The position numbers and the translations under genes are program-made. Below, piece by piece: positions 1,981-17,600 of a stretch of DNA of 64,000 nucleotides. Origin of the DNA: Halopseudomonas salina (GTDB taxonomy: Bacteria; Pseudomonadota; Gammaproteobacteria; Pseudomonadales; Pseudomonadaceae); contig NZ_VTTI01000001.1 of NCBI RefSeq assembly GCF_008641105.1, forward strand, positions 536,375 through 600,374. The letters are read 5' to 3'. Each line of letters opens with the position of its first letter. Position 1 is the first letter of the stretch. Under the pieces are notes generated by a model, which was not told where the DNA came from, made no database searches, and saw only the letters and a list, made by a program, of their open reading frames with translations.

Positions 1981-3348
1981 CTAGAGAACGCCCGGCAGCC
2001 AGGTGACCAGGCCAGGCCACAGGGCCACGATCACTAGCATCAGGATCTGGATGGCTATGAACGGCAGCACCCCGCGATAGATTGCCGAGGTCGGCACGTC
2101 GGGGTGTGTGACCCCGCGCAGGTAGAACAGGGCAAAGCCGAAGGGGGGAGTCAGAAAGGATGTTTGCAGATTGAGGGCGATCATGACCCCCAACCAGATA
2201 GGATCGATGCCCATCATCAACAGCACCGGACCGACAATGGGAACGACCACGAATGTGATCTCGATAAAATCAAGAATGAAGCCGAGCAGGAAGATGACCA
2301 GCATGACCAGCAGCGTTGCGGTAAAGGCGCCGCCCGGTAGCTGTTGAAACAGGTTGTGGATCATCTCTTCGCCACCAAAGCCGCGAAACACCAGGGAGAA
2401 TATCGAAGCGCCGATAAGGATCATGAACACCATGGCACTGATCTCGGTAGTCGCGCGGCTGACCTCGCGAAGTCGTGCAATGGACAACTGGCCGTTGGCC
2501 AGCGCCAGCAACATCGCGCCGATGGCTCCTACCGCCGCGGCTTCTGTTGGTGTGGCTATGCCGGCAAGTATCGAGCCGAGTACCGCAGCGATGAGCAGTA
2601 GGGGTGGGAACAGGCTACCGAGTAGGCCGATGATACTCACCTGGCCACGCTCTTCGACCGGTAGTGCCGGCATCTTTTCGGGTTGCCAGAGCGCTACGGC
2701 GATCAGGTACAGCAGGTAGAGTCCAACCAACAGCAGCCCGGGCAACAGGGAGCCAATGAACAGGTCGCCTACCGTGACTGTTTCGGGTGAGAAGATCCCC
2801 ATGCGCAGCTGTGCCTGTTGGTAGGCATTGGAGAGCACATCGCCGAGCAGTACGAGAATGATCGAGGGCGGAATGATCTGACCCAACGTACCAGTAGCGG
2901 CCAGGGTTCCTGTGGCCAGGGCAGGATCATAGCCGCGGCGCAGCATTGTTGGTAATGCCAACAGGCCGAGCGTGACCACAGTGGCGCCGACAATACCGGT
3001 GCTGGCCGCCAGCAATGCCCCGACCAGCAAGACAGAAAACGCGAGACCGCCGCGCAGGCCCCCGAACAGTTGTGACATGGACTCCAGCAGCTTCTCGGCC
3101 ACCCGGGATTTCTCCAGCATGACCCCCATGAAAACAAACAATGGCACTGCCAGCAGTGTCTGATTGTTCATCGTGCCGAACAGTCGGCTGGGCAGTGCGC
3201 CGAAGAAGCTTGGGTCAAACAGGCCGAGCATTACGCCGGCCCCGGCAAACAGCAGGGAGATGCCTCCCAGGGTAAAGGCGACAGGGTAGCCGAGCATCAA
3301 AGCCAGGCAGAGACAGACAAACAGCGCGATGGCCATCAGCTCGGGCAT
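1981..3348 (-). CDS. dctM: TRAP transporter large permease (DctM type)
   Basis: Large membrane subunit of a tripartite ATP-independent periplasmic transporter, which uses an ion gradient to drive uptake of a solute handed over by a periplasmic binding protein. It has 455 residues and about a dozen hydrophobic helices, with family features such as the N-terminal LMLGYPVAFTLGG, the TGIVGATVVTLGLLALP segment and LGFILDFIEITFVVVPI. The stretch LRMGIFSPETVTVGDLF resembles the mannitol/chloroaromatic branch. It overlaps the small permease gene by one base (TAATG), so the two are translationally coupled. The substrate cannot be read from the sequence, and no binding-protein gene lies next to it. Confidence 0.9.
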   Translation of the reverse strand: MPELMAIALFVCLCLALMLGYPVAFTLGGISLLFAGAGVMLGLFDPSFFGALPSRLFGTMNNQTLLAVPLFVFMGVMLEKSRVAEKLLESMSQLFGGLRGGLAFSVLLVGALLAASTGIVGATVVTLGLLALPTMLRRGYDPALATGTLAATGTLGQIIPPSIILVLLGDVLSNAYQQAQLRMGIFSPETVTVGDLFIGSLLPGLLLVGLYLLYLIAVALWQPEKMPALPVEERGQVSIIGLLGSLFPPLLLIAAVLGSILAGIATPTEAAAVGAIGAMLLALANGQLSIARLREVSRATTEISAMVFMILIGASIFSLVFRGFGGEEMIHNLFQQLPGGAFTATLLVMLVIFLLGFILDFIEITFVVVPIVGPVLLMMGIDPIWLGVMIALNLQTSFLTPPFGFALFYLRGVTHPDVPTSAIYRGVLPFIAIQILMLVIVALWPGLVTWLPGVL

Positions 3349-6720: not shown

Positions 6721-7407
6721 TCAGGCCAGGGTAACCTCAATGCCGGCACCGACCATAACTATGCTGCCTGCTTCCGGCTCCTGCATGGTGATTTTCCTCT
6801 TGGCTGCAGGTGCGTCTACGGCGTTGCCCTGTTTGTCTACGGCCGAGAGTTCCTGATCCAGCAACTCGGCAAGCTGTAGTGCCTCTTCCCAATTTTTGTC
6901 TATCAGGGCGGGTACCACACGAATCTCGCTGGCGCGTGCCGGCGCGGGCACCGGCACGATCTTGAAAGTCACCTTGGCGGCGGCACTGGACTGAAAACCG
7001 TAGCGATTGGTCAGGTCCGCATTGACTGGTGCCGCATAAAGCCGTGCTGCCGGCAGCTGGGAATGTACCAGCCTCGAGCTGTTCAGGTCGCTCAGGTTCA
7101 ACTGCGCGATCTTTCCCTTCGCTGGTATAGGGGCGGGTGGCTGGGTACGGGTGTCGCCGCTGATGCTCAGTGCTACCTGAATCTCACCTGTGGTTTCTGG
7201 CAGGGCATAGAAAGTTGGTTGATATCCAATCTCCTGCAGCAAGCGCAGTTCAGCATCCCCCCCTTCGCTGTAGATCGCCAGTACCTTGGCCAGCGAGCCC
7301 TGGTCCAGAGCTTCCTGGGCCTGGGCGACCCCCTGCCCGACGGCTGCAATTATTTCACCGATGGGTGCTGCCATCACGTCGCTGACCAGATTCTTGATGG
7401 TTGTCAT
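6721..7407 (-). CDS. Cluster protein: scaffold paralogue with C-terminal PASTA-like domain
   Basis: Function unknown; 228 residues with no signal peptide or membrane helix. It carries the three blocks shared by six proteins of this cluster: block A at about 12-36 (GVAQAQEALD), block B at 56-83 (EIGYQPTFYALPE followed by a strand) and a diverged block C at 131-156 (NRYGFQSSAAAKV then VPVPAP). The last 65 residues (about 164-228) look like a PASTA domain, with an N-terminal VPALI, a helix EEALQLAELL and the ending QEPEAGSIVMVGAGIEVTLA. PASTA domains usually bind peptidoglycan or beta-lactams outside the cell, so a cytoplasmic-looking protein with one is odd. It is the last gene of the cluster, with an AGGA site eight bases before its ATG and an 18-base gap to the gene before it. 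Confidence 0.75.
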   Translation of the reverse strand: MTTIKNLVSDVMAAPIGEIIAAVGQGVAQAQEALDQGSLAKVLAIYSEGGDAELRLLQEIGYQPTFYALPETTGEIQVALSISGDTRTQPPAPIPAKGKIAQLNLSDLNSSRLVHSQLPAARLYAAPVNADLTNRYGFQSSAAAKVTFKIVPVPAPARASEIRVVPALIDKNWEEALQLAELLDQELSAVDKQGNAVDAPAAKRKITMQEPEAGSIVMVGAGIEVTLA

Positions 7408-7425
7408 TGCGTTTATCCTGTGTGC

Positions 7426-8811
7426 TTAGGCTTGGGTGAAAACCACCATGATGCTCTCGCCGGGGCTTACCTGCGTGCCCTTGGCGGGTAGCTGACGTAT
7501 GGCCTGACCAATCGGCAGGCTGGAGTTGGTAACGCTCTGATAGGCAGCATCCATGTTCAACCCCATATCTCTGGCCAGACGTCGGGCCAGCGTTTCGGTG
7601 AGTTCGGTGAAGTCGGGTACGCTGATCAGCCCCTCGTCTTCGCTCACGGCGGCGTCGGGCAAGAACTCCAGGTTTACATCGGTGAACATGCCTGCTGCGC
7701 CCTTGTTGTTCAGATCCGCCAGGGTCGGCATGGTCAACTGGTTACCCGAGACCAGGGTCTTGAGGTTGAGGGACACCTTGCCCAGTCGGTATGGCACCGC
7801 TTCGTTGTTGAGTGCCATCTGCGCCTCCTGCAACTGTTTACCGATATTGGCATACAGCTCACCAGCACCTACCTGGGTATTCATCTGCTGCTTCAGCTGT
7901 TCGGCTTCGTCCTTGGCCTTGGCGGCTTCCTCCATTGCAGCACTCGACACCTTGGCCATTTCCTTCAGGCGCTCGGTATAGCTGGTCAGTTCCAGGTTCT
8001 TGGCATTGATGGTCTGTTGCAGTTGCATTGCACGTATGTCGTAGTCTGCTGCCTGACGGATGATCTGCTCGTTCAGGTTTAGCTTCATGGTTTCGGTAGC
8101 CAGGGTGAATTGCTCGTTTACCGGTTTGCTCGAGGCAGTGGTGGCGGGCTTTGCCTTGAGCTCCCTCTCCAGCGTCGCAATCCTGCTCTGCGCCAGACGC
8201 AGCTCCTGTGTGGTCTTGAGGTTGTTCTGCTCGAGCTGCACCATCTGCATCTGTTTCTGGTTCAGCTCGGTATCCTGTAGCTCTATGCGCTTGGTCAGGT
8301 CGGCATTCATGCGCAACTGCGCGGTGCTCGGTTGTTCCACAATCTGCGGCTTTACGAAGGCTGTAATAGGCGCGCCAGCCATGGTCATGCGGGCGGTCGC
8401 AGCGCTAACTTGGGGTGCAGGCGGACGGGGTACACCGGCTATCAGGTAGTCATCTGTCTGGCTGAAGGGAGCTGTGTGGTCGCTGCGCGCGATGGCGTTA
8501 TTGGCCAGACGTTGTATCTGTCCGAAGGATAGGTGAGCGGAGGTAGCCGACGCGACCTGCACCAGGCCACCTTCAGCAAGGACCCGGGCAGGCTGCCCCG
8601 AGACGCTGGCTTCACACAGGCGCATGGCCGGCAGTATTTCACCGCCGGAAGTCAGTTTGGTTTTCAGAGAAAAGCGACCCTGGGCGTTCAGTGCAGCCTT
8701 GGCCTGGGCGCGCCAGGCCTTGCGGGTCAGATCATAGATCTGCACCTGTACTGTACCGGTGGCGGGTTTGCCGTCGGCTTCCAGCACGACGCCAGTGATA
8801 CTCCATTGCAT
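7426..8811 (-). CDS. Cluster protein: Ig-like N-terminus, coiled coil, C-terminal PASTA domain
   Basis: Function unknown; 461 residues, no signal peptide or membrane helix. Residues 1-60 resemble a carboxypeptidase-regulatory/transthyretin-like beta sandwich (ITGVVLEADGKPATGTVQVQ, then LNAQGRFSLK). Residues about 165-320 are a long heptad-rich coiled coil with many Gln, Glu and Lys. Residues about 325-355 (EAQMALNNEAVPYRLGKVSL) recall block A of its neighbours followed by strands. Residues about 395-461 are a good PASTA domain: VPDFTELTETLARRLARDMG, then IRQLPAKGTQVSPGESIMVV. Such a layout suggests a rod with wall-binding or self-assembling ends. An AGGA motif lies before the ATG. It is ten bases downstream of the preceding gene. 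Confidence 0.75.
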   Translation of the reverse strand: MQWSITGVVLEADGKPATGTVQVQIYDLTRKAWRAQAKAALNAQGRFSLKTKLTSGGEILPAMRLCEASVSGQPARVLAEGGLVQVASATSAHLSFGQIQRLANNAIARSDHTAPFSQTDDYLIAGVPRPPAPQVSAATARMTMAGAPITAFVKPQIVEQPSTAQLRMNADLTKRIELQDTELNQKQMQMVQLEQNNLKTTQELRLAQSRIATLERELKAKPATTASSKPVNEQFTLATETMKLNLNEQIIRQAADYDIRAMQLQQTINAKNLELTSYTERLKEMAKVSSAAMEEAAKAKDEAEQLKQQMNTQVGAGELYANIGKQLQEAQMALNNEAVPYRLGKVSLNLKTLVSGNQLTMPTLADLNNKGAAGMFTDVNLEFLPDAAVSEDEGLISVPDFTELTETLARRLARDMGLNMDAAYQSVTNSSLPIGQAIRQLPAKGTQVSPGESIMVVFTQA

Positions 8812-8821
8812 GAAGGTGTTC

Positions 8822-9547
8822 CTACGGGCTGAGAATGAGTTGGGTCAGGGTTGGGCCGCTGCTGATCAGCAGCACGATATTGGCGTTCGCCGGGACCTTG
8901 TTGGTCAGTTCGACATCAACCTCGGCATTGCCTTGTTCGTCCGTTTCTACCACACGCTGGCTGAACTGCACCGCCGTTCTGATCTTGTCTTCGCTGAAGC
9001 TGGCTGGCGCACCAGCCAGCTCGCTAAGCTTCTGACTGGCTTCAATATCCAGATTGAACTCGATCATCGCCCCGCTGATCAGGTCGCCGGCAGTATTGCT
9101 CAAGTTGACCAGGATTTGGCGGATGCGCGGCTTGTCGGTGTTGCTCATGGCTCGCGTAACCAACCGGTTCGTGGGCAGGTTGTTGCTCGGCGGTACCGAC
9201 ACCAGCCGACCGCTGAAGGTACTGGTCAGCTCGGTGGAACTGCTGCTCGGTTCGGAGTTGGCGTTCAGGCTGGGCATTTTCAGACGCAGCATGGGGATTT
9301 TCTGAATCTTGGCACTGGTCGCACCCATAGCCCGCGTTGGCGCAGCCGGAGCGGCCTGCTCGGTGGTCTCCATGGTCGCCTTGATGGTGAAGTCCAGATA
9401 GGGCAGGTGGTAGCTGCTGCGCGGTCGCCCATAGTTGTCGGTGGGCGGCATCTCGTCGAGTACGGCCTGGGCATCGCGCAGTCCCCGGGCCAGCCCGAGT
9501 AATACCTGTTCGATGGAGCTGGAAACGAATTGGCTGGATTTGCTCAT
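8822..9547 (-). CDS. Cluster protein: short scaffold paralogue with Ig-like tail
   Basis: Function unknown; 241 residues, no export signal. The N-terminus keeps a form of block A (IEQVLLGLARGLRDAQAVLD, about 12-31) followed by a strand pair (YHLPYLDFTIKATME). Around residues 109-120 STFSGRLVSVPP matches the end of block C. Block B is missing or beyond recognition. From about 140 to the end the alternating hydrophobic pattern, with ETDEQGNAEVDVELTNKVPA, fits a bacterial Ig-like or transthyretin-type beta domain. Its ATG lies two bases after the stop of the preceding gene with no clear Shine-Dalgarno motif, so translation is probably coupled. Confidence 0.7.
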   Translation of the reverse strand: MSKSSQFVSSSIEQVLLGLARGLRDAQAVLDEMPPTDNYGRPRSSYHLPYLDFTIKATMETTEQAAPAAPTRAMGATSAKIQKIPMLRLKMPSLNANSEPSSSSTELTSTFSGRLVSVPPSNNLPTNRLVTRAMSNTDKPRIRQILVNLSNTAGDLISGAMIEFNLDIEASQKLSELAGAPASFSEDKIRTAVQFSQRVVETDEQGNAEVDVELTNKVPANANIVLLISSGPTLTQLILSP

Positions 9548-9549
9548 GG

Positions 9550-10371
9550 TCAGTCGGTACTCAATTGAGGTCGTTGGGCGCGGCGTTCCTGGGCTCGCTC
9601 ACGCTTCATCATGTCCTGGCGTTCAGCCTGTCGTTCGGCCCGGCGCGCTTCCAGGCGCTCTGCGCGCTGTTGCTCGCGTTGTCGGTCACGGCGCTGCGCC
9701 AGGTCGTCGGTGGAGCCCGGGGCGATACCAAGCAGTTTTTCCGTGCGTTGCTTATAGCGCTGGTCGAAACTCTCCCGCGTGGTGGCGCGTTCGGTCCGGG
9801 TAGGATGCCGGGCCGCATCCAGCCGCTGTGTCAGGGGTGCCTCGACGGGTCGGGAAAGGGGTGCCTGGATGGTCTCCCTACGGCTGTTTCGCAGACGTTC
9901 CTGCGCCTTGTTGCGGGCATCGTTGACGCGCTGATCGAGGCGCTGCATCAGGCTTTGCTTCTGGGCGAGCAGCTGGCGTGCCCGATCCTCGGCCTGGCCT
10001 GCCTGGCTGTCGCGCAACGCTTGCCAGCCATCGCGGGGGGCTTGCCGAGGCCGTTGATCCAGAGCTGCGGCAGGTTCGGTCTTGCACTGTTCGTGCTGGC
10101 GCGCCCAGCGTTCCAGCTCGGCGCGGCGTTCAGCCATGCTGGCAACCGGAAAGCGCGGATCCTCCCCGGGGGTTTGCCCTGCGCGTGTGGGGCTCGACCC
10201 CAGCTCTTGCATGCGGGCCTCCAGCGCCTTGCGCTTTTCCAGCAGTGACTGCAGAGCAGGCAGCTGCTCGGCAACGCTGGCAAGATCGGCTGGTGGGGCG
10301 CGCTGTGCCTCCCGCGTGCGTCGCCCTCCAGTCTGTTGCCGGGCCAGGTCGCGCCAGGTCTTGCGACTCAT
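9550..10371 (-). CDS. Cluster protein: basic Arg/Gln-rich helical protein
   Basis: Not recognised. It has 273 residues, is exceptionally rich in Arg, Gln, Ala and Glu, and is predicted to be almost wholly helical or disordered, with coiled-coil character near 35-60, 125-165 and 215-265. The C-terminal third is a run of short RxE/QRAER-type repeats with strong positive charge, which could bind nucleic acid or an acidic partner such as its Glu-rich neighbours. There is no membrane segment, enzyme motif or Cys. The ATG overlaps the stop of the preceding gene by four bases (ATGA), and the upstream GAGGAGGAAGG supplies a ribosome site. High GC and open shadow frames make the exact start less sure. 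Confidence 0.65.
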   Translation of the reverse strand: MSRKTWRDLARQQTGGRRTREAQRAPPADLASVAEQLPALQSLLEKRKALEARMQELGSSPTRAGQTPGEDPRFPVASMAERRAELERWARQHEQCKTEPAAALDQRPRQAPRDGWQALRDSQAGQAEDRARQLLAQKQSLMQRLDQRVNDARNKAQERLRNSRRETIQAPLSRPVEAPLTQRLDAARHPTRTERATTRESFDQRYKQRTEKLLGIAPGSTDDLAQRRDRQREQQRAERLEARRAERQAERQDMMKRERAQERRAQRPQLSTD

Positions 10372-10901
10372 TCTTCGCCTTCCTCCTCAATCATCTTGCG
10401 GATGCGTTCCTCGAGAATCGCCGGAGGCGGCACGGTTACCAGCTTGGTCCGCATGACCGAACTGCCCTCCGCGGAATACTGATACTTGCTGGCGAAACTG
10501 GCGGATACCGAGCTGGCTGTCATCGAGCCGGCGGCGAAGAAAGGCAACGCGCCGCCCTTGGCACTGGCTTTGACCTGATTGCGTTTGAAGGTCGAGCTGC
10601 GTTCACTGCTGACGCTGATCGATATCTTCAGCTCGATGACGGTGTCGACGAACTGATAAAACGTTGGCATGAACCCGAGTTCGAGCAGGCTGTAGGACTT
10701 GCCGTTACTGAACTCGACCTTGTAGGTCTGCTCGCTGCCACCGTCTTCGTCCTCATCAGTGCCGCTGGCGTAGCCGGCCATCATGCGCGCGATACGCAGG
10801 GACACCAGGTCCAGTTCGAGCTGCGCCTCGGCAATACCCACGCCCAGATTGCGCACCATCATCGGAAACGGGACGTTCATTAATTCCGTGCCTACAGACA
10901 T
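10368..10901 (-). CDS. Cluster protein: scaffold family, short acidic member
   Basis: Function unknown; 177 residues and clearly a paralogue of the next gene upstream (10932-11636). Block A is at about 4-33 (ELMNVPFPMMVRNLGVGIAE, then AQLELD), block B at 71-97 (LLELGFMPTFYQFVDTVIEL) and block C at 136-172 (YSAEGSSVMRTKLVTVPPPA followed by ILEERIRKMIEEE). Between A and B lies an acidic DEDEDGG stretch; between B and C is a low-complexity Ser/Ala region. The pattern is loosely like DUF2589 proteins, but I am not certain of that assignment. AGGAGG lies before the ATG. The end overlaps the Arg-rich gene. Confidence 0.75.
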   Translation of the reverse strand: MSVGTELMNVPFPMMVRNLGVGIAEAQLELDLVSLRIARMMAGYASGTDEDEDGGSEQTYKVEFSNGKSYSLLELGFMPTFYQFVDTVIELKISISVSSERSSTFKRNQVKASAKGGALPFFAAGSMTASSVSASFASKYQYSAEGSSVMRTKLVTVPPPAILEERIRKMIEEEGEE

Positions 10902-10931
10902 GGTCGATCCTCCTGTTCAGGCTGTGGGCAC

Positions 10932-11636
10932 TCAGGCGTCTTCTTCCGCTTCGGCCGGCTGACGGCGCGCTGCGGCTTCTTCCATCATCGCGCGGATTCG
11001 TTCTTCCAGAATCGGCGGCGGCGGGACCGGCGCCAGCTTGGTACGCAACAGGCTCGACCCCTCGGCTGAATAGGAGTACTTGGACGAATAGGTGGCGTCT
11101 ACCTGGCTGGTGGCCACGGTCGATGAACCACTATTCTTGCCGCCGAAAACCTTGCCGAACAGGCCGCTGGTCTTGTTCTTCTTCGAGTTCTCGGTTTTCT
11201 TGTTGCTGCGGGTGCTGGTGAACTCGCGGGTGCGGGTGATCTTGATGGCGATCTTCACCTCGATGATGGTGTCCACGAAGTTGTAGAAGACCGGCGTGAA
11301 GCCCAGCTCCAGCATCGACAGTCGCGTCGGCACGCGGACCATGCCGTCAGCGTCCTTGTGCTTGACCGCTTCGGTCACGACCTTGGCGTAGCCGGTATCA
11401 ATGGCAGCGAGCGAATTGGCCGCGTTTTCGGTCATGTATTCGTGACCAAAGAAGATCCGGCTGTCATCGAAGGTGATGTTGCCTTCGTCATCGTAAATGG
11501 TGCGCAGGCCGCCCATCATTTCGGCGACGTCAATCGAGGCTTCGTCGAGCTTGACCTGGGCTTCGGCGATGGCGAATGCCATCTGCCGGATCATGTCGCC
11601 CATGGGGACATTAAGTAGTTCCTGACCGATACTCAT
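10932..11636 (-). CDS. Cluster protein: scaffold family, mid-size member
   Basis: Function unknown; 234 residues without signal peptide or membrane helix. Block A: residues 4-33 (ELLNVPMGDMIRQMAFAIAE, then AQVKLD). Block B: 107-132 (LELGFTPVFYNFVDTIIEVK). Block C: 181-218 (YSAEGSSLLRTKLAPVPPPP, then EERIRAMMEE). A Lys/Ser/Asn-rich linker (about 140-175) separates B from C. The near identity of blocks B and C with the 177-residue neighbour points to a local gene duplication. The first block, with a PxxDMI turn and an AxAEAQ helix, is what suggests a link to DUF2589. An AAGGAG site precedes the ATG, and 30 bases separate it from the following gene. Confidence 0.75.
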   Translation of the reverse strand: MSIGQELLNVPMGDMIRQMAFAIAEAQVKLDEASIDVAEMMGGLRTIYDDEGNITFDDSRIFFGHEYMTENAANSLAAIDTGYAKVVTEAVKHKDADGMVRVPTRLSMLELGFTPVFYNFVDTIIEVKIAIKITRTREFTSTRSNKKTENSKKNKTSGLFGKVFGGKNSGSSTVATSQVDATYSSKYSYSAEGSSLLRTKLAPVPPPPILEERIRAMMEEAAARRQPAEAEEDA

Positions 11637-11654
11637 TGTGCAGCTCCTTTGAAC

Positions 11655-12134
11655 TTAGTCATCCTGATTCTGCAGGCCCTTGTCGTGCAGCCGGCGCAGT
11701 ACTTCGCTGAAAGCCTCCGGGGCGGGCAGCGATACCAGCCGGGCGGCGATTGAACTGGTGCCCTCGGCGGACACCGAAAATTTGCGCGCATAGGACACAT
11801 CCACGCTTGCCGCAACCATGACCACGCCGTAATTGACCCGTGCCGTCACGCCGGCTGAAACCGAGGTCTCGGTGGTTTCCGACATGCTGAATGACAGCTT
11901 TGCCTCCACTGTGGCCTCGGTGAAGGCGTAGAAGCTGGGCGCAAAGCCCAGAGTCAGCAGGTTGTAGGTTTCACCGTTGAGCTCCACCGGTGTCTCGGCC
12001 ATCTGTTTGGCGACCTCGACCGAGTTGCTGTCCAGCGCCGACTGGGCCTGGGCAATGGCCAGACCGAGCCGCTCGATGATCTGCGGCAGCGGCGCACTGA
12101 CCAGGGAGCGGGTAACACTGACGGTTTCCGACAC
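11655..12134 (-). CDS. Cluster protein: scaffold family, minimal member (GTG start)
   Basis: Function unknown; 159 residues, the shortest version of the family and so probably close to the core fold: block A 13-36 (LPQIIERLGLAIAQAQSALD), block B 57-84 (LLTLGFAPSFYAFTEATVEA) and block C 113-150 (KFSVSAEGTSSIAARLVSLP). The middle is a series of alternating Ser/Val strands (about 84-113), suggesting a beta-rich body between two helical ends. It begins with GTG, with GGAGG eight bases upstream inside the end of the preceding gene, and starts three bases after that gene's stop, so translation is likely coupled to the OmpA-containing protein. Confidence 0.75.
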   Translation of the reverse strand: MSETVSVTRSLVSAPLPQIIERLGLAIAQAQSALDSNSVEVAKQMAETPVELNGETYNLLTLGFAPSFYAFTEATVEAKLSFSMSETTETSVSAGVTARVNYGVVMVAASVDVSYARKFSVSAEGTSSIAARLVSLPAPEAFSEVLRRLHDKGLQNQDD

Positions 12135-12137
12135 GGT

Positions 12138-13862
12138 CTATTCCTCCAGGAAGGTGCGGATGGTCTCGAGAAATTCCGGAGGGGCCGGAATCGAGACCAG
12201 CCGTGCTGAAATCGACGAGTTACCGGTCACGTCCAGCTCGAATTTCTTGCTTTCATGCATGCTGAATGTCGCGCCTACCGCCACGGTATGGTTGCCGGTA
12301 CGTCGTTGCGTCTCACGCTGGGCGGAGGTCCGTTCGAACTGTTCGGTAACCGTGATGCTTTCGCTGCTACTGACGCGCACATCACGGCTCGAGCGGGTGA
12401 TCAGGCGCAGGCTGACGGGGTCGGTTTCGCGGGCCAGGTTACAGATGGCGCCGCTGGCCGATGCGGCGATCTGGCTGGCGCTATCGGCGTTGATGCTGTT
12501 GCTCAGGTTCTTGGCGAAGGCCTGGGGGCTGTCAGCCTCGAGGCCGTCTATCGCAGCCCCGGACAACTCCCAGGTTTGTCCTTCAGCGGTGACGGTCTTG
12601 CCATTGACGCCTGTCAGGGTCTGGCTATCGAAGGTATGTATCCATCCATTGGTACCGGGCTCGGAGCCATCCCGTCGGTCCGGGCTGACGCCGCTGATGG
12701 GCTCGCCATTCTCGGCATCGACCCGGATCATCTCGATATCCAGCAGAATCTCCACTCTGCGATGGGCCTGGTCGTAAGGCAGACCTTCCCGATCCCCGGG
12801 GTTGGCGCTGATTTCGCCCTCGCCGGTGGTGGTGGTGATCTGGCTTTCCTGCACACCCATGCGGATCATCTGACGCTTGACCTCGTTGGCGCGCCGCTGG
12901 GACAGATCCAGGTTGTAATCAGGCGTCGCCGGCGGGTCCGCATGCCCGACGATCTTGAAATGCAGTGAGCTGCGCGCCAGCAGAAGGGCTACTTCCTGGA
13001 GCTTGTCCAGTTGATCAGCACGAATGTTGGCGCGGTTGATGTCGAACAGAATGTTCTCGATCGGGAAGCCAGGGGGGAAAAGCTTGGCATTGAACCCAGC
13101 GTCCTCAAAATGGGTTTTGACCTTCCGTGCATAGTTGCGGATGCTGTTGGAAACGGGCACCTGGACGGTGATGTCTGGATTGACCACAAAGTCGGTGGCT
13201 GAATTGGCTGCTATGCGAATGAAACCGCAGGCGTAGCCGAAGGCCTTGAAGGCCACCGCGTTGGCTGTGCATTCGACCAGCGCGGCACTGGCGTTGGAGG
13301 TTGGATTGATGGGGGTTTCCGTGCGGTCGAAAGCCACTGCGTCGATATCTGCATTGCCTGCCAGGGCATCCACCAGATTGTTCAGACGCGCTTCGAGATC
13401 GGGGCCGTTGACGCCAATGCGCTCATTGTTGACCACGACTTCACCGGCTGACTGGCTGGTGATCTGCAGTTTGGCCTCGCGGGTGCGGGTTTCGTTGCTG
13501 GTGCCACTCTCGCTAGTCGTTTCGCTGTTCTCTGACGACGCCTCGTTGCCGAATGTGCCGTCGTAGGCGGCGTTTACACCCAGGTCCCATCCTGAGTTCT
13601 CTTCGACCTTCAAGCGCAGGTTCATCGAGCAACTGATGTCGGCATGCTGATAGTGGTAAAACGCCGGGCTGAAGCCCATTTCGATCAGCGTCTTGCCTCC
13701 CAGGCCGGGAATGGGCGAGATAAAGCTGTCCAACTGTTCGATGGAATTGGCATCCAGTGCCTGTTGCGCCTTCGCGATACCCAGGCCGAGACTGGAAATG
13801 AACTCGGCGACACTGGCATCGGCGAGTACCTCGCCCGGCTTTAACCCATTGTATTGACTCAT
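12138..13862 (-). CDS. Cluster protein: scaffold family with inserted OmpA-like domain
   Basis: 574 residues, function unknown. Block A (16-46, SLGLGIAKAQQALD) and block B (57-85, IEMGFSPAFYHYQ) are at the N-terminus and block C (538-574, then SSISARLVSIPAPPEFLETI) at the C-terminus, so the usual scaffold is split by about 440 residues. Within that insert, residues about 268-375 are a full OmpA C-terminal-like domain: ILFDINRANIRADQ, GHADPP, YNLDLSQRRANEVKRQ and HRRVEILL. Asp315 and Arg324 fit the pair that binds diaminopimelate in peptidoglycan. Residues about 190-260 hold two Cys and a helical stretch; 380-535 are Ser/Thr-rich strands. There is no signal peptide or lipobox, unlike ordinary OmpA-domain proteins. 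AAGGAGCT precedes the ATG. Confidence 0.8.
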   Translation of the reverse strand: MSQYNGLKPGEVLADASVAEFISSLGLGIAKAQQALDANSIEQLDSFISPIPGLGGKTLIEMGFSPAFYHYQHADISCSMNLRLKVEENSGWDLGVNAAYDGTFGNEASSENSETTSESGTSNETRTREAKLQITSQSAGEVVVNNERIGVNGPDLEARLNNLVDALAGNADIDAVAFDRTETPINPTSNASAALVECTANAVAFKAFGYACGFIRIAANSATDFVVNPDITVQVPVSNSIRNYARKVKTHFEDAGFNAKLFPPGFPIENILFDINRANIRADQLDKLQEVALLLARSSLHFKIVGHADPPATPDYNLDLSQRRANEVKRQMIRMGVQESQITTTTGEGEISANPGDREGLPYDQAHRRVEILLDIEMIRVDAENGEPISGVSPDRRDGSEPGTNGWIHTFDSQTLTGVNGKTVTAEGQTWELSGAAIDGLEADSPQAFAKNLSNSINADSASQIAASASGAICNLARETDPVSLRLITRSSRDVRVSSSESITVTEQFERTSAQRETQRRTGNHTVAVGATFSMHESKKFELDVTGNSSISARLVSIPAPPEFLETIRTFLEE

Positions 13863-13876
13863 TTGTATAGCTCCTT

Positions 13877-14455
13877 TCAGAGAGGCGAGGCCATGCCGCT
13901 GGCGTGCAGGCGTTCGGCGGGTAGGGCAATGGCACGGGCCGGATCAACCAGCTCCTTGCGAACGATGTAGTAGTGGTGACGGCGCTGGGCTTCATCCAGT
14001 TGTCTGACTCCCACGCTGAGTCCGCGACGTATCCAGCCGAGGACCTCACGAGCCATGGGTAGCGGATGATCCCCGGCGGTAGCCAGGGCCTGCTCGATTG
14101 CTTCAACGGCGTCGTTCTGACGACCCATGCGCAGCAGAATGCTTGCGCGTCGCTGGTGGTTTTCGGCGCGGTCCCGGGCTACCAGGGCCAGCGGGGAGGC
14201 AATACGCTGGTAGTGGGACTCTGCCTCGTCGCAATAACGCAGCACGGCTTCCAGGCTGCCACTGCGTTCCAGGCTTTCCATCACGCATTGGGTGTAATGG
14301 CGGAAGAAAACTTCCGGAGCGGAGCTGCTGACGGCCATGCGCAGGGCTTCCCGGTAATGCGCGAGAGCGGACTCGTGCTGGCCTTTGAGCGCGAGCAGCT
14401 TGCCCTGTTCTGCAATTCCCAGATGCATTCCGACGTTGGCTGCGTTGGCGCTCAT
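13877..14455 (-). CDS. Cluster protein: TPR-like helical repeat protein
   Basis: 192 residues, all helical, with two or three tetratricopeptide-like units: LLALKGQHESALAHYREALR (about 19-38), a middle pair around the segment ALVARDRAENHQRRASILLR, and GRQNDAVEAIEQALATAGDH. TPR repeats usually bind other proteins, so this may be the assembly chaperone or adaptor of the cluster. There is no signal peptide. The start overlaps the stop of the preceding gene by four bases (ATGA), and the next gene follows after 14 bases. The exact partner is unknown. Confidence 0.7.
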   Translation of the reverse strand: MSANAANVGMHLGIAEQGKLLALKGQHESALAHYREALRMAVSSSAPEVFFRHYTQCVMESLERSGSLEAVLRYCDEAESHYQRIASPLALVARDRAENHQRRASILLRMGRQNDAVEAIEQALATAGDHPLPMAREVLGWIRRGLSVGVRQLDEAQRRHHYYIVRKELVDPARAIALPAERLHASGMASPL

Positions 14456-15558
14456 GGAGAGGTCTCCTCGAATCGGTACTCGGCTTCCAGGGCGTCGAGG
14501 CCGCTTTGCAGCCAGCGTGGCAGCAGTTCGCCGAAGAGCATGTCGGAAATCCAGGGCAGGGTGGCTAGCTGCCCGGCATGCTCGATCAGCCCGCCGGTCT
14601 GCAGCAGCTCGCGGCAGCGCTCAGGTTGGGGGCAGCTTTCAACGATCAGGCGGCAGCAGCGCAGGCTTGCAAGTTGCGGCCGCACTGTCATGCCTGCTGC
14701 GGACCAGGCAGCCAGCCGGTGTTGCAGCGAGTGGGCTGGCACGCCTTCTTCGACCACTATGGGCAGGTTCTCGATAACACAGGGCACCAGATCTGCGGGA
14801 AACCCGGCCAGGGCTGGTAGCTGTTCAAGGCAGCTATCGGAGCTGATTTGCTCCAGATTCAGGTCAAAGCGCATAAAGGCCTTGTCGACCAGCCGCAGAC
14901 CACCGGCCGACTGATGCCGACGCCAGAGGTACTGGCCCTGCTGGTAATCCAGCTCGGCGCCATCCAGGGTCCCCGTCGCGTCCGCATTGATGCCCATGCG
15001 TTGCAAGTCGCCGAGCAGGCTGCTCAATGCAGTACCGCGTTGGCGACTGATAAACAGTGCGTAGCGCGCTTGTTTACGTGCTGAACAGATCAATTCCACC
15101 GGTAGACCATCCAGCAGCTGCTGCAAGGCGTCGGCCGTGGCCTGGCTGACGTCGCCAAGAATAACGCTGGGGGGCGCCAACAACATGTTCTGTATGGCGG
15201 CGGCGGGGCAGCCGAGAAAACGCGACAGCCGCTCACAGCATGTAGCGAGGCAAGCCGGTTCACGCAGATACAGGGCAATATCCAGGCTATCTGCAGCTGT
15301 TGGTACGGGACTTTGACTGGGCTCTATACGGATGCCCAGGCCGGCCTGGCTGAGAATCTCGGCGAGACCCTGTGCATGGGGCATGGGCAGCTTGTCGAGC
15401 AATATTGCTGGGGCCTTGTACAGAGCGCTGGCCACCTGCGAAGCTGGCATGCCCAGCTGGCTCGCCAGGACACCCGCCAGACCGGGGCTGGCTGAGCCGA
15501 TGGACTCAACGATCAGACGTTGTTCGGCAGCTGGGCTGCGAAGGGTGGCTTCCTGCAT
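14452..15558 (-). CDS. Cluster protein: three ribosomal-L7/L12-C-terminal-like repeats
   Basis: 368 residues, function unknown. Three stretches follow the pattern of the L7/L12 C-terminal fold (helix, short PxxI loop, helix, Gly, strand): about 15-80 (ASALYKAPAILLDKLPMPHA, then LAEILSQAGLGIRI), 92-160 (MLLAPPSVILGDVSQATADA, then LLDGLPVELI) and 231-300 (VIENLPIVVEEGVPAHSLQH, then WSAAGMTVRP). In ribosomes this fold docks translation factors; elsewhere it is a generic protein-binding module. Several Cys pairs (such as CC at about 107-108 and 301-302) are present without a metal motif. It has a strong AGGAGG site six bases before the ATG and is the second gene of the cluster, 16 bases after the peptidase gene. 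Confidence 0.65.
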   Translation of the reverse strand: MQEATLRSPAAEQRLIVESIGSASPGLAGVLASQLGMPASQVASALYKAPAILLDKLPMPHAQGLAEILSQAGLGIRIEPSQSPVPTAADSLDIALYLREPACLATCCERLSRFLGCPAAAIQNMLLAPPSVILGDVSQATADALQQLLDGLPVELICSARKQARYALFISRQRGTALSSLLGDLQRMGINADATGTLDGAELDYQQGQYLWRRHQSAGGLRLVDKAFMRFDLNLEQISSDSCLEQLPALAGFPADLVPCVIENLPIVVEEGVPAHSLQHRLAAWSAAGMTVRPQLASLRCCRLIVESCPQPERCRELLQTGGLIEHAGQLATLPWISDMLFGELLPRWLQSGLDALEAEYRFEETSP

Positions 15559-15574
15559 GTTGGCCTCCTGCCAT

Positions 15575-16399
15575 TCAGTCCGGTACGCGCCCGAAACCGA
15601 GCAGATTGTTCATCCGTGAATAAACGTAATCGAACACTTTTACCGGCGCCGGGAACGGGCCTTTATTGCCCTCGATCACGTAAAGAATGCCGCCTTCGCT
15701 GAGCTCGACAACCATGCCGATATGTCCGGCGTGGGGGTTCCCGGGTACATCTCGGGTCCAGACCACGATATCGCCAGGTTCCGGTAGCTGCCCTTTGCGT
15801 GGGTCTATGCGCCAGCCGCGGCGGGTAAACTGATTAAGTATGTCGCGGGCACCCAGGCTGTAGTTGTACGGGCAACCCTGGGGGTGCTGGCTATAGCACC
15901 AACTGACGAAGCCGGCACACCATGGAAGGGGTGATTTACCGTTGGGATGCAGATACTTGCGCACGAACTCGCCGTTGTTATTGCTGCCGATTTCGCGGGC
16001 ACCGGCTTCGCGCTCTTTGAAAGCCATTTGCAGTGCTAGGCGGCCCCGAGCCGAGCCTCCACGTGCAAGTGTCGGGGTGCTGGCCACTGCATCCAGTGGT
16101 TCAGCCTGCGGTACAGGATCTTCGATGTGCACCAGGCGCCACGCTGTCAGGGCGCCAACCAGTCCGTCCACGGCCAGAGGTCTGCCGCGTTCGTCCAGCT
16201 GTGAGGCTTGAAAGGTGCGCACCGCGCGCTGGGTTGCCAGGTCGAATATAGCGCCGGGCTTGTCTACCAGGCCCAGGGTGTGGAGACGCTGGTTCAGATA
16301 GCTGACCATGTCGCCCCTGGAGCCACGACGCAACAGATTGCTGCGCACGTGATCGAGGAAAGCCTGGGCTGGCTGATCGATTTTGCGAGACTTCGTCAT
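15575..16399 (-). CDS. Peptidoglycan-binding domain plus CHAP-like cysteine peptidase
   Basis: 274 residues. Residues about 18-90 form a PG_binding_1 three-helix domain (RRGSRGDMVSYLNQRLHTLG, then TQRAVRTFQ and VDGLVGALT). Residues about 125-270 are a CHAP or NlpC/P60-related catalytic domain: PWCAGFVSWCY gives nucleophile Cys161, NPHAGHIGMV gives His226, and IEGN (Glu243/Asn245) can complete the site. GDIVVW before the His is typical. Such enzymes cut peptide bonds in peptidoglycan. No signal peptide is present; the N-terminus MTKSRKIDQPAQ is hydrophilic, so delivery to the wall would need lysis, another secretion route or a non-wall substrate. It is the first gene of the cluster, with a GGGGG-rich ribosome site. 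Confidence 0.8.
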   Translation of the reverse strand: MTKSRKIDQPAQAFLDHVRSNLLRRGSRGDMVSYLNQRLHTLGLVDKPGAIFDLATQRAVRTFQASQLDERGRPLAVDGLVGALTAWRLVHIEDPVPQAEPLDAVASTPTLARGGSARGRLALQMAFKEREAGAREIGSNNNGEFVRKYLHPNGKSPLPWCAGFVSWCYSQHPQGCPYNYSLGARDILNQFTRRGWRIDPRKGQLPEPGDIVVWTRDVPGNPHAGHIGMVVELSEGGILYVIEGNKGPFPAPVKVFDYVYSRMNNLLGFGRVPD

Positions 16400-16667: not shown

Positions 16668-17600
16668 ATGGCTAGAGTGTCGGCCCTGGTAGTGGATGAC
16701 GCCCCTTTCATCCGCGACCTGGTAAAAAAAGCATTACGCAGCCAATTCCCCGGCTTGCAGATTGAAGAGGCCGTTAATGGCCGCAAGGCTCAGCAGGTGC
16801 TGAGTCGCGCGGCCTTTGACCTGATTCTGTGTGACTGGGAAATGCCGGAGATGAGCGGGCTCGAGCTGCTGCAATGGTTCCGTGGTCAGCCCGGTTCCGA
16901 GAAGACGCCCTTTATCATGGTGACCAGCCGCGGCGACAAGGAAAATGTCATCGAGGCCATTCAGGCCGGTGTGAGCGATTTTATCGGAAAGCCCTTCACC
17001 AACGAGCAACTGGCGGCCAAGGTTAAAAAGGCGTTGCATCGCAGCGGCAAACTACAGGTGCTGCAGGGCCGTCAGGCTCCGGCCAGCGGCGGAACTGCGC
17101 AGGATTCGGTCGCCAACCTGATGGGGGGGCGCAAGCCTGATAGCGGTTCGAATTCTGTTGCGGCCTCACCCGCAGCTCCGCCGGAGATCAAGCCCGCAAT
17201 CAGTGAAACCGGCGCTACGGACTCCGATACTACCGATGTGCAGGACCGCCCGGCCACCCAACAGGTGCGTGGCCAGGCGCAATTGCGCTTGGCCGGCGGT
17301 CAGTTTGCCTGTGTGGTCAAGACCTTGAGCCTGCGCGATGCGCTGGTAGTGGTCCGACGCAGCGAACATATGCCGCAAGTATTCGAGAGTGGAGTGCTTG
17401 ATCTGGAGCAGGACGCGGACAAGAGTGTCGCGCGCATCAACGCCTACGTGCACGCGGTAGCGTCGATGGAGCCGACAATGGATTGCGAATGGATCAAGGT
17501 TACCCTGAAGTTCGTCGATCAGGATCCGCAGAAATTGGACTACCTATCACGCCTGATCGCGTCCGGCAGTGCTCAACGGCACTATTCGCCAAGCGCCTGA
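16668..17600 (+). CDS. Response regulator: receiver domain with PilZ-like C-terminal domain
   Basis: 310 residues. The receiver domain (1-120) is intact: acidic pair Asp10/Asp11, phospho-acceptor Asp56 in CDWEMP, switch Thr86/Ser87 and Lys108 in GKPF. A Pro/Ala/Ser-rich linker (about 125-200) leads to a C-terminal beta domain (about 205-305: AQLRLAGGQFACVVKTLSLR, then MDCEWIKVTLKFVD) that resembles a PilZ barrel without an obvious RxxxR c-di-GMP motif. There is no DNA-binding helix-turn-helix, so the output is probably protein- or ligand-based. In PAO1 a response regulator (PA5364, from memory) lies next to phoU; here the two are 11 kb apart with the accessory cluster between. Its own sensor kinase is not evident; it converges with phoR. 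Confidence 0.8.
   Translation: MARVSALVVDDAPFIRDLVKKALRSQFPGLQIEEAVNGRKAQQVLSRAAFDLILCDWEMPEMSGLELLQWFRGQPGSEKTPFIMVTSRGDKENVIEAIQAGVSDFIGKPFTNEQLAAKVKKALHRSGKLQVLQGRQAPASGGTAQDSVANLMGGRKPDSGSNSVAASPAAPPEIKPAISETGATDSDTTDVQDRPATQQVRGQAQLRLAGGQFACVVKTLSLRDALVVVRRSEHMPQVFESGVLDLEQDADKSVARINAYVHAVASMEPTMDCEWIKVTLKFVDQDPQKLDYLSRLIASGSAQRHYSPSA

Follow-up and report, generated by a model that had tools for sequence, protein, structure and literature searches.

The only prior names that we found to touch the genes described here are those of two domain families, DUF2589 and, weakly, Trypco2. DUF2589 (PF11655) consists of a helix, a central strand pair and a C-terminal helix, and the DUF2589-related genes AF0414-AF0417 of Archaeoglobus fulgidus are up-regulated on lactate, according to passages of one report (PMC3949148). 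Trypco2 (PF19631), the adaptor of MoxR-vWA-trypsin systems, is presented in passages of two others as a conflict-system domain that co-occurs with trypsin (PMC7159879, PMC10907252). The locus that we compare with these families lies in a 64,000-nucleotide stretch of Halopseudomonas salina (contig NZ_VTTI01000001.1, positions 536,375 to 600,374; hereafter the window, whose numbering is used for its genes), where eleven open reading frames (ORFs), named G1 to G11 by transcription order, occupy the minus strand at 6721-16399. Ten of these, G2-G11, form a conserved unit to which G1 is a local extra, and this unit may be an operon encoding a hetero-oligomeric assembly, made in the cytoplasm and engaging peptidoglycan, a reading to which we give just short of an even chance.

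The spacings from G1-G2 through G10-G11 are 16, -4, 14, 3, 18, 30, -4, 2, 10 and 18 bases, with 4-base overlaps at G2-G3 and G7-G8. An earlier, sequence-only reading of this DNA had described eleven same-strand genes with two overlaps and gaps of at most 30 bases, which the ORF coordinates and spacings bear out, and had proposed one operon, which they support. A promoter and terminator scan was uninformative (1 and 5 sites vs. 2.4 and 9.2 in shuffles). Scanning 84,980 species genomes with an alignment of G5 homologs and two small-cluster proteins (A2) returned 96 relatives, and the loci of the best 80 were analysed. At least four unit genes were found in 58 of the 80, all labelled ORFs of the 58 lying on one strand; we term these loci, each holding an order-constrained chain of at least four unit genes, type I. 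By best single-sequence labels, with order left unconstrained, the genes ascend strictly from G2 to G11 in 50 of the 58, and the eight exceptions resemble split ORFs, early-starting stop-to-stop ORFs or label swaps among scaffold paralogues. Within the chains G4 and G6 were counted 58 times, G5 and G7 57 times, G2 and G3 53 times, G9 and G11 51 times, G10 38 times, G8 26 times and G1 twice. The order-constrained chain is complete for G2-G7, G9 and G11 in 45 type I loci, where iterated profiles find G8 in 43 and G10 in 45 (for the scaffold genes such profiles merge, so that paralogues are not told apart by them); G8 is found in 52 loci by iterated profile vs. 26 of the 58 by single-sequence search. 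Nine of the 13 incomplete loci stop at a contig edge, three hold the missing gene by iterated profile, and the last, L024, is weighed below. Median gaps from G2-G3 through G10-G11 are -4, 19, 3, 30, 28, 3, -1, -1 and 13 bases, and in 37 of 51 loci G2 overlaps G3. The eleven-gene cluster of the sequence-only reading thus stands for G2-G11, at least four of which lie together in 58 of the 80 loci, and not for G1, whose ortholog was found among the 80 only in L002 (partial, at a contig edge) and L003. When flanking ORFs were clustered, no family accompanied type I units other than common ones and those limited to close relatives.

Represented among the loci are Alpha-, Beta- and Gammaproteobacteria, Bacteroidota, Myxococcota and metagenome-assembled genomes (MAGs) titled Gemmatimonadales and Latescibacterota, and because gene order is kept across phyla the arrangement is more than chance. 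The window and the Bacteroidales locus L053 share 49-58% identity in G5-G7 and 25-39% in G2-G4 and G9-G11. G5 has 454 homologs at E<=0.001, the closest being from Halopseudomonas and related Pseudomonadaceae. Prevalence of the unit is low and patchy: a G7 profile, which may also pick up small clusters, matched 3 of 229 genomes in the class of L020's Marinobacterium genome, G003 (itself one of the three; another is marginal, at 7.7e-4), 3 of 8 in its genus, and 2 of 247 in a Bacteroidota phylum set (one being the centre genome). In a quick tree built from seven proteins, concatenated for 49 loci, for which the tool flagged long branches and uneven composition, Bacteroidota and Myxococcota each formed one group, alphaproteobacterial Paracoccaceae and Rhodobacter fell with gammaproteobacterial Marinobacterium and Saccharospirillum, and the Gemmatimonadales MAG with Halomonas (Shimodaira-Hasegawa-like approximate likelihood ratio support, SH-aLRT, 100 for both). 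Horizontal transfer of the unit is likely on this tree, although MAG contamination could mimic such a pattern. A ten-gene order that is kept across phyla, and is patchy with signs of transfer, speaks for strong selection for the whole set. We considered and rejected a viral or plasmid origin: relatives of G5 were absent from the viral contigs and phage records and present in one plasmid record, relatives of G7 were absent from the viral contigs, and scaffold relatives of the small clusters were absent from the phage records.

Profile comparison supports the view that seven of the ten unit proteins carry one ancestral subunit, a helix followed by a long beta-hairpin, which we call the scaffold. 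The sequence-only reading had listed six paralogues sharing three blocks, A to C; the common scaffold held up, while the number of carriers rises to seven, G10 being added by profiles. The minimal form is G5 (11655..12134, 159 aa, GTG start), and alignments identify as paralogues G6 (10932..11636, 234 aa, with an insert ahead of block B; alignment A13) and G7 (10368..10901, 177 aa; alignment A12). The blocks are strong in G4-G7 and in G11 (6721..7407, 228 aa), a scaffold copy with a PASTA domain that matches the scaffold at an hhalign probability of 99.7%. They are weak in G9 (8822..9547, 241 aa; 81.1% and 82.6%), a divergent copy with an Ig-like-looking C-terminal part (Big_1-like by eye). 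G10 (7426..8811, 461 aa), comprising an N-terminal part, a coiled coil by appearance, a scaffold-like segment and PASTA, joins through G11, the two profiles matching at 96.8% over 148 columns, PASTA included. As controls, the profiles of G2, G3 and G8 scored 0.2% or less against the scaffold.

An AlphaFold2 (AF2) model of G5 places a helix at residues 16-47 and strands at 68-97 and 108-136, with a mean predicted local distance difference test score (pLDDT) of 68. Its best Foldseek rows in the PDB come from the long hairpins of pore and ring proteins, and the FliF S-ring and the stems of PA, iota and aerolysin likewise use a long two-stranded hairpin in oligomeric rings; these differ from the scaffold in that the structural scores are weak and no PDB sequence matches its profile at E<=5. 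Such rows, together with the endolysin-like neighbours described below, favour a lysis or pore system, whose hairpins would insert as a membrane beta-barrel and let a neighbouring wall hydrolase with no evident signal reach the wall. This explanation lost ground because hydrophobic alternation, though it reaches significance over 68-88 in 63 of 76 rows, rarely covers whole strands (68-97 in 3 of the 76, 108-136 in 1), and we consider it quite improbable. PDB sequence searches with DUF2589, G9 and the single sequence of G2 gave nothing useful, and G5-G9 had no Pfam match at E<=1. The core subunit is one without known function, of which G5, G6 and G7 offer small, expressible targets for structure work. 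In BFVD, the sole match to G5 at E<0.001 was a viral protein (A0A516MP19), a full-length but weak structural match (E 6.9e-5, template modelling score 0.40).

By profile comparison the scaffold is a distant relative of the DUF2589 superfamily, whose helix, strand pair and C-terminal helix it shares. Comparison of blocks A-C with DUF2589, which the sequence-only reading had proposed, gave an end-to-end hhalign match of 95.3% (E 2.2e-8) between the scaffold alignment (A3) and a DUF2589 alignment of 11 proteins (A4), vs. 1.4% for the reversed-profile control. G6 scored 92.4% against A4, G7 only 53.5% (reversed, 4.0%) and G9 0.4%. Unlike the window unit, DUF2589 clusters are small, and the Pfam model itself misses the window proteins, matching none of the 11 at E<=1; it was also found in none of 8 genomes holding such loci (controls silent). 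Of 229 gammaproteobacterial genomes one contained DUF2589, as did 20 of 294 from the phylum of an archaeal MAG, 15 of the 20 having paired adjacent matches, and a third short gene followed the pair in 4 of the 9 archaeal loci whose ORFs were inspected. The unit thereby offers a route to DUF2589 function. Mobile records with DUF2589 comprised one viral contig, one short phage record and five plasmids. One plasmid, from Deltaproteobacteria bacterium Smac51, carries two DUF2589 genes (L134:6116-10398) with an N-acetylmuramidase 2 kb further on, and another, from Vibrio sp. 16, has an HlyD adaptor and a peptidase-domain ABC exporter in the vicinity of a DUF2589 gene (L138:921-5958).

Wall-binding modules are built onto the scaffold in several places. 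G4 (12138..13862, 574 aa) is a helix and beta-hairpin subunit with two further domains, and its OmpA domain (Pfam, 2.2e-14) is inserted between the two hairpin strands; this is the OmpA/Pal/MotB wall-binding domain, here inside a hairpin protein that has no evident signal peptide. D309, R324 and R368, which we take to be the usual diaminopimelate-binding residues of the domain, are kept in 41, 48 and 48 of 48 rows respectively, and fold and ligand Asp/Arg together predict peptidoglycan binding. Domains X and Y of G4 showed no mutual similarity (hhalign 6.5%). PASTA is found in G10 by Pfam (1.4e-7); in G11 a single-sequence search leaves it below the Pfam cut-off, but the family profile matches a kinase PASTA chain (5e-8). 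The N-terminal part of G10 has a very weak transthyretin-like match (0.25), and Big_1 was matched by 3 unspecified members of A8, an alignment of 35 proteins (G9, G10, the third-gene proteins of the small clusters and relatives). The remaining unit proteins are G2 (14452..15558, 368 aa), with repeats like the ribosomal L7/L12 C-terminal domain; G3 (13877..14455, 192 aa), a TPR protein (TPR_2, 2.1e-7); and G8 (9550..10371, 273 aa), with 18.7% Arg. The ortholog profile of G2 matches PDB chains at two places, E. coli L7/L12 over 10-81 (1.3e-5) and a bL12 over 232-296 (0.002); Pfam Ribosomal_L12 is reached at E<=0.1 by 9 of 36 G2 orthologs, the window protein not among them. The modules named by the sequence-only reading were thus confirmed, CHAP, TPR and PASTA by Pfam, the L7/L12-like repeats by profile and the Arg-rich protein by composition.

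By hydropathy no membrane helix was seen in the 11 proteins (no 19-residue stretch above 1.6 on the Kyte-Doolittle scale). Together with the TPR part of G3 and the DUF2589 relatives in archaea, this would suit an object that stays entirely inside the cell, a scaffold or compartment-like body formed as a cytoplasmic filament or shell, in which the OmpA, PASTA and Ig-like parts serve only as adhesive or spacer modules. The OmpA ligand residues, however, are kept across phyla, and wall hydrolases repeatedly adjoin the unit, in a minority of loci; we think an intracellular structure unlikely. G1 (15575..16399, 274 aa) is one such accessory hydrolase, local and outside the conserved unit, with a CHAP peptidase domain (6e-12) and a PG_binding_1-like part just under the cut-off (21.4 of 23 bits). 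A CHAP gene lies beside the unit in the window and in L003, Amidase_2 with SH3_3 in L039 and L053, PG_binding_1 with M15 in L020, and PG_binding_1 in L041 and L078.

Under the peptidoglycan-engaging reading, the products of the unit may assemble jointly. A ring, tube or filament would arise from subunits packed via their helices and hairpins, with the most conserved members, G5, G6 and G7, as its body. G4 would display its OmpA domain from between the hairpin strands and G10 and G11 would add PASTA, modules that suggest an assembly able to hold the cell wall, while G2, G3 and G8, with their L7/L12-like, TPR and Arg-rich parts, might help in assembly or recruitment. Lysis, an unknown exit or passage of the hairpins across the inner membrane could bring the cytoplasmically made parts to the wall, and lineage-specific endolysin-type hydrolases, where present, could help the assembly pass or release the wall.

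Several points weigh against this reading. Products without evident signals, on which no signal-peptide predictor was run, would still need a route to the wall, and PASTA and OmpA folds can have other roles. Archaea, in which DUF2589 relatives occur, lack murein, so that the ancestral function common to these proteins was probably not wall binding. Most of the 58 loci have no wall hydrolase alongside; PG_binding_1 (4 members) and Amidase_2 (3) appear among the 89 nearest flanking ORFs, while the list of 25 families for 88 distant ORFs contains neither, but this comparison of seven with none is small, its rows are related and single-member families are not all listed. L024 (Mangrovicoccus ximenensis) has G4-G7 only, though its contig continues on both sides, and in the G5 model the hairpin tip (88-117) falls below pLDDT 50, with a predicted template modelling score of 0.52.

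The sequence-only reading had allowed that the set might be a known phage tail, secretion or inclusion-body system; none emerged from Pfam, run on all 11 window proteins, or from PHROGs, PADLOC and NCBIfam, run on 10 of the 11 (G3 excluded), other than hits attributable to the CHAP, OmpA and coiled-coil parts. No sheath, tube, baseplate or tape-measure Pfam family of contractile injection systems or phage tails was found in the 11 proteins, and PHROGs gave endolysins and tail lysozymes at the CHAP and PG-binding parts of G1, OmpA-region families at G4, and otherwise E 0.004 or worse. The type VI secretion set (TssB/C, Hcp, VgrG, ClpV) was not found by NCBIfam in the 10 proteins, where only the OmpA part of G4 matched the TssL-long and DotU models, TssL far under its cut-off. 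PADLOC likewise gave no system core protein in these 10, its matches being limited to the coiled coil of G10 and, on the OmpA part, to MotB-like models. This tells against an anti-phage or other conflict system whose small scaffold-like proteins would be adaptors, as proposed for Trypco2, as do the Pfam families commonest in the flanks (transport, metabolic, regulatory) and the absence by Pfam of any nucleotide-binding or nuclease part in the unit. In its favour are the patchy distribution and Trypco2 matches at E<=1 in 7 of the 35 A8 proteins (G9, G10, third-gene proteins and relatives; best 5.5e-4), a weak likeness to systems from which the unit differs in having no trypsin, MoxR or vWA family by Pfam. 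We judge a conflict system very improbable. Apart from one Myxococcota locus (L115), Trypco2 matches are under the curated cut-off where a cut-off is shown, as for an extra gene in L054 (20.6 bits, cut-off 24.2); the family was found in 3 of 97 Myxococcota genomes and in none of a set of 8 genomes.

Smaller relatives have their own gene order, a protein of ~100 residues, two scaffold genes, a third protein of ~160 residues and a coiled-coil-looking protein, seen in 11 of 13 fully visible loci (L001, L058-L063, L072-L077). Of the other two, L076 has a longer third gene and no adjoining coiled-coil gene, and L077 ends at a contig edge. Titles of these loci include Chlorobi, Clostridia, Anaerolineae, Rhodoferax and Pelovirga, with Chloroflexi and one plasmid among the sources, and an archaeal MAG (L071) holds at least one scaffold gene and further relatives. 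Against the third-protein profile, the C-terminal part of G10 scores 88.2% and G9 52.9%, vs. 2.3% for the scaffold. Unifying the third genes was tried and rejected, the archaeal third protein scoring 2.1% against G9 and 8.6% against that of the small clusters. Tentatively, and with more doubt than belief, we suggest that G2-G11 may be a new class of wall-engaging machine, built of a duplicated helix and beta-hairpin subunit with no evident secretion signals, whose simplest versions (paired hairpin genes plus a small partner, as in DUF2589 loci and small clusters) would extend across bacteria and archaea, and to which some bacteria would have added wall-binding modules and interchangeable hydrolases. 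The open-access PubMed Central library holds no account of the ten-gene set that we could find, a weak absence, as most subscription papers and preprints lie outside that search.

Some further features of these loci were noted, several of them by eye. The first gene of the small clusters (L075:9628-9945, L073:9619-9915, L061:9628-9930 and equivalents) looks like a subtilisin-propeptide (I9) fold, with no convincing Pfam match in the three proteins tested. The longer third protein of L076 (4118-5089) seems to have PASTA-like and helix-hairpin-helix parts; one unspecified A8 member matches HHH_5 and DUF4332. In L115, a Trypco2-matching protein (3e-6) adjoins a long protein whose C-terminus resembles the scaffold hairpin (856-1761 and 2127-3146, both minus strand). 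Response regulators occur in the flanks of 13 loci, on both sides and both strands; in the window one with a weak PilZ-like match (16668-17600, plus strand) is the divergent neighbour of G1, and Halopseudomonas loci such as L003 have a similar gene upstream of the unit.

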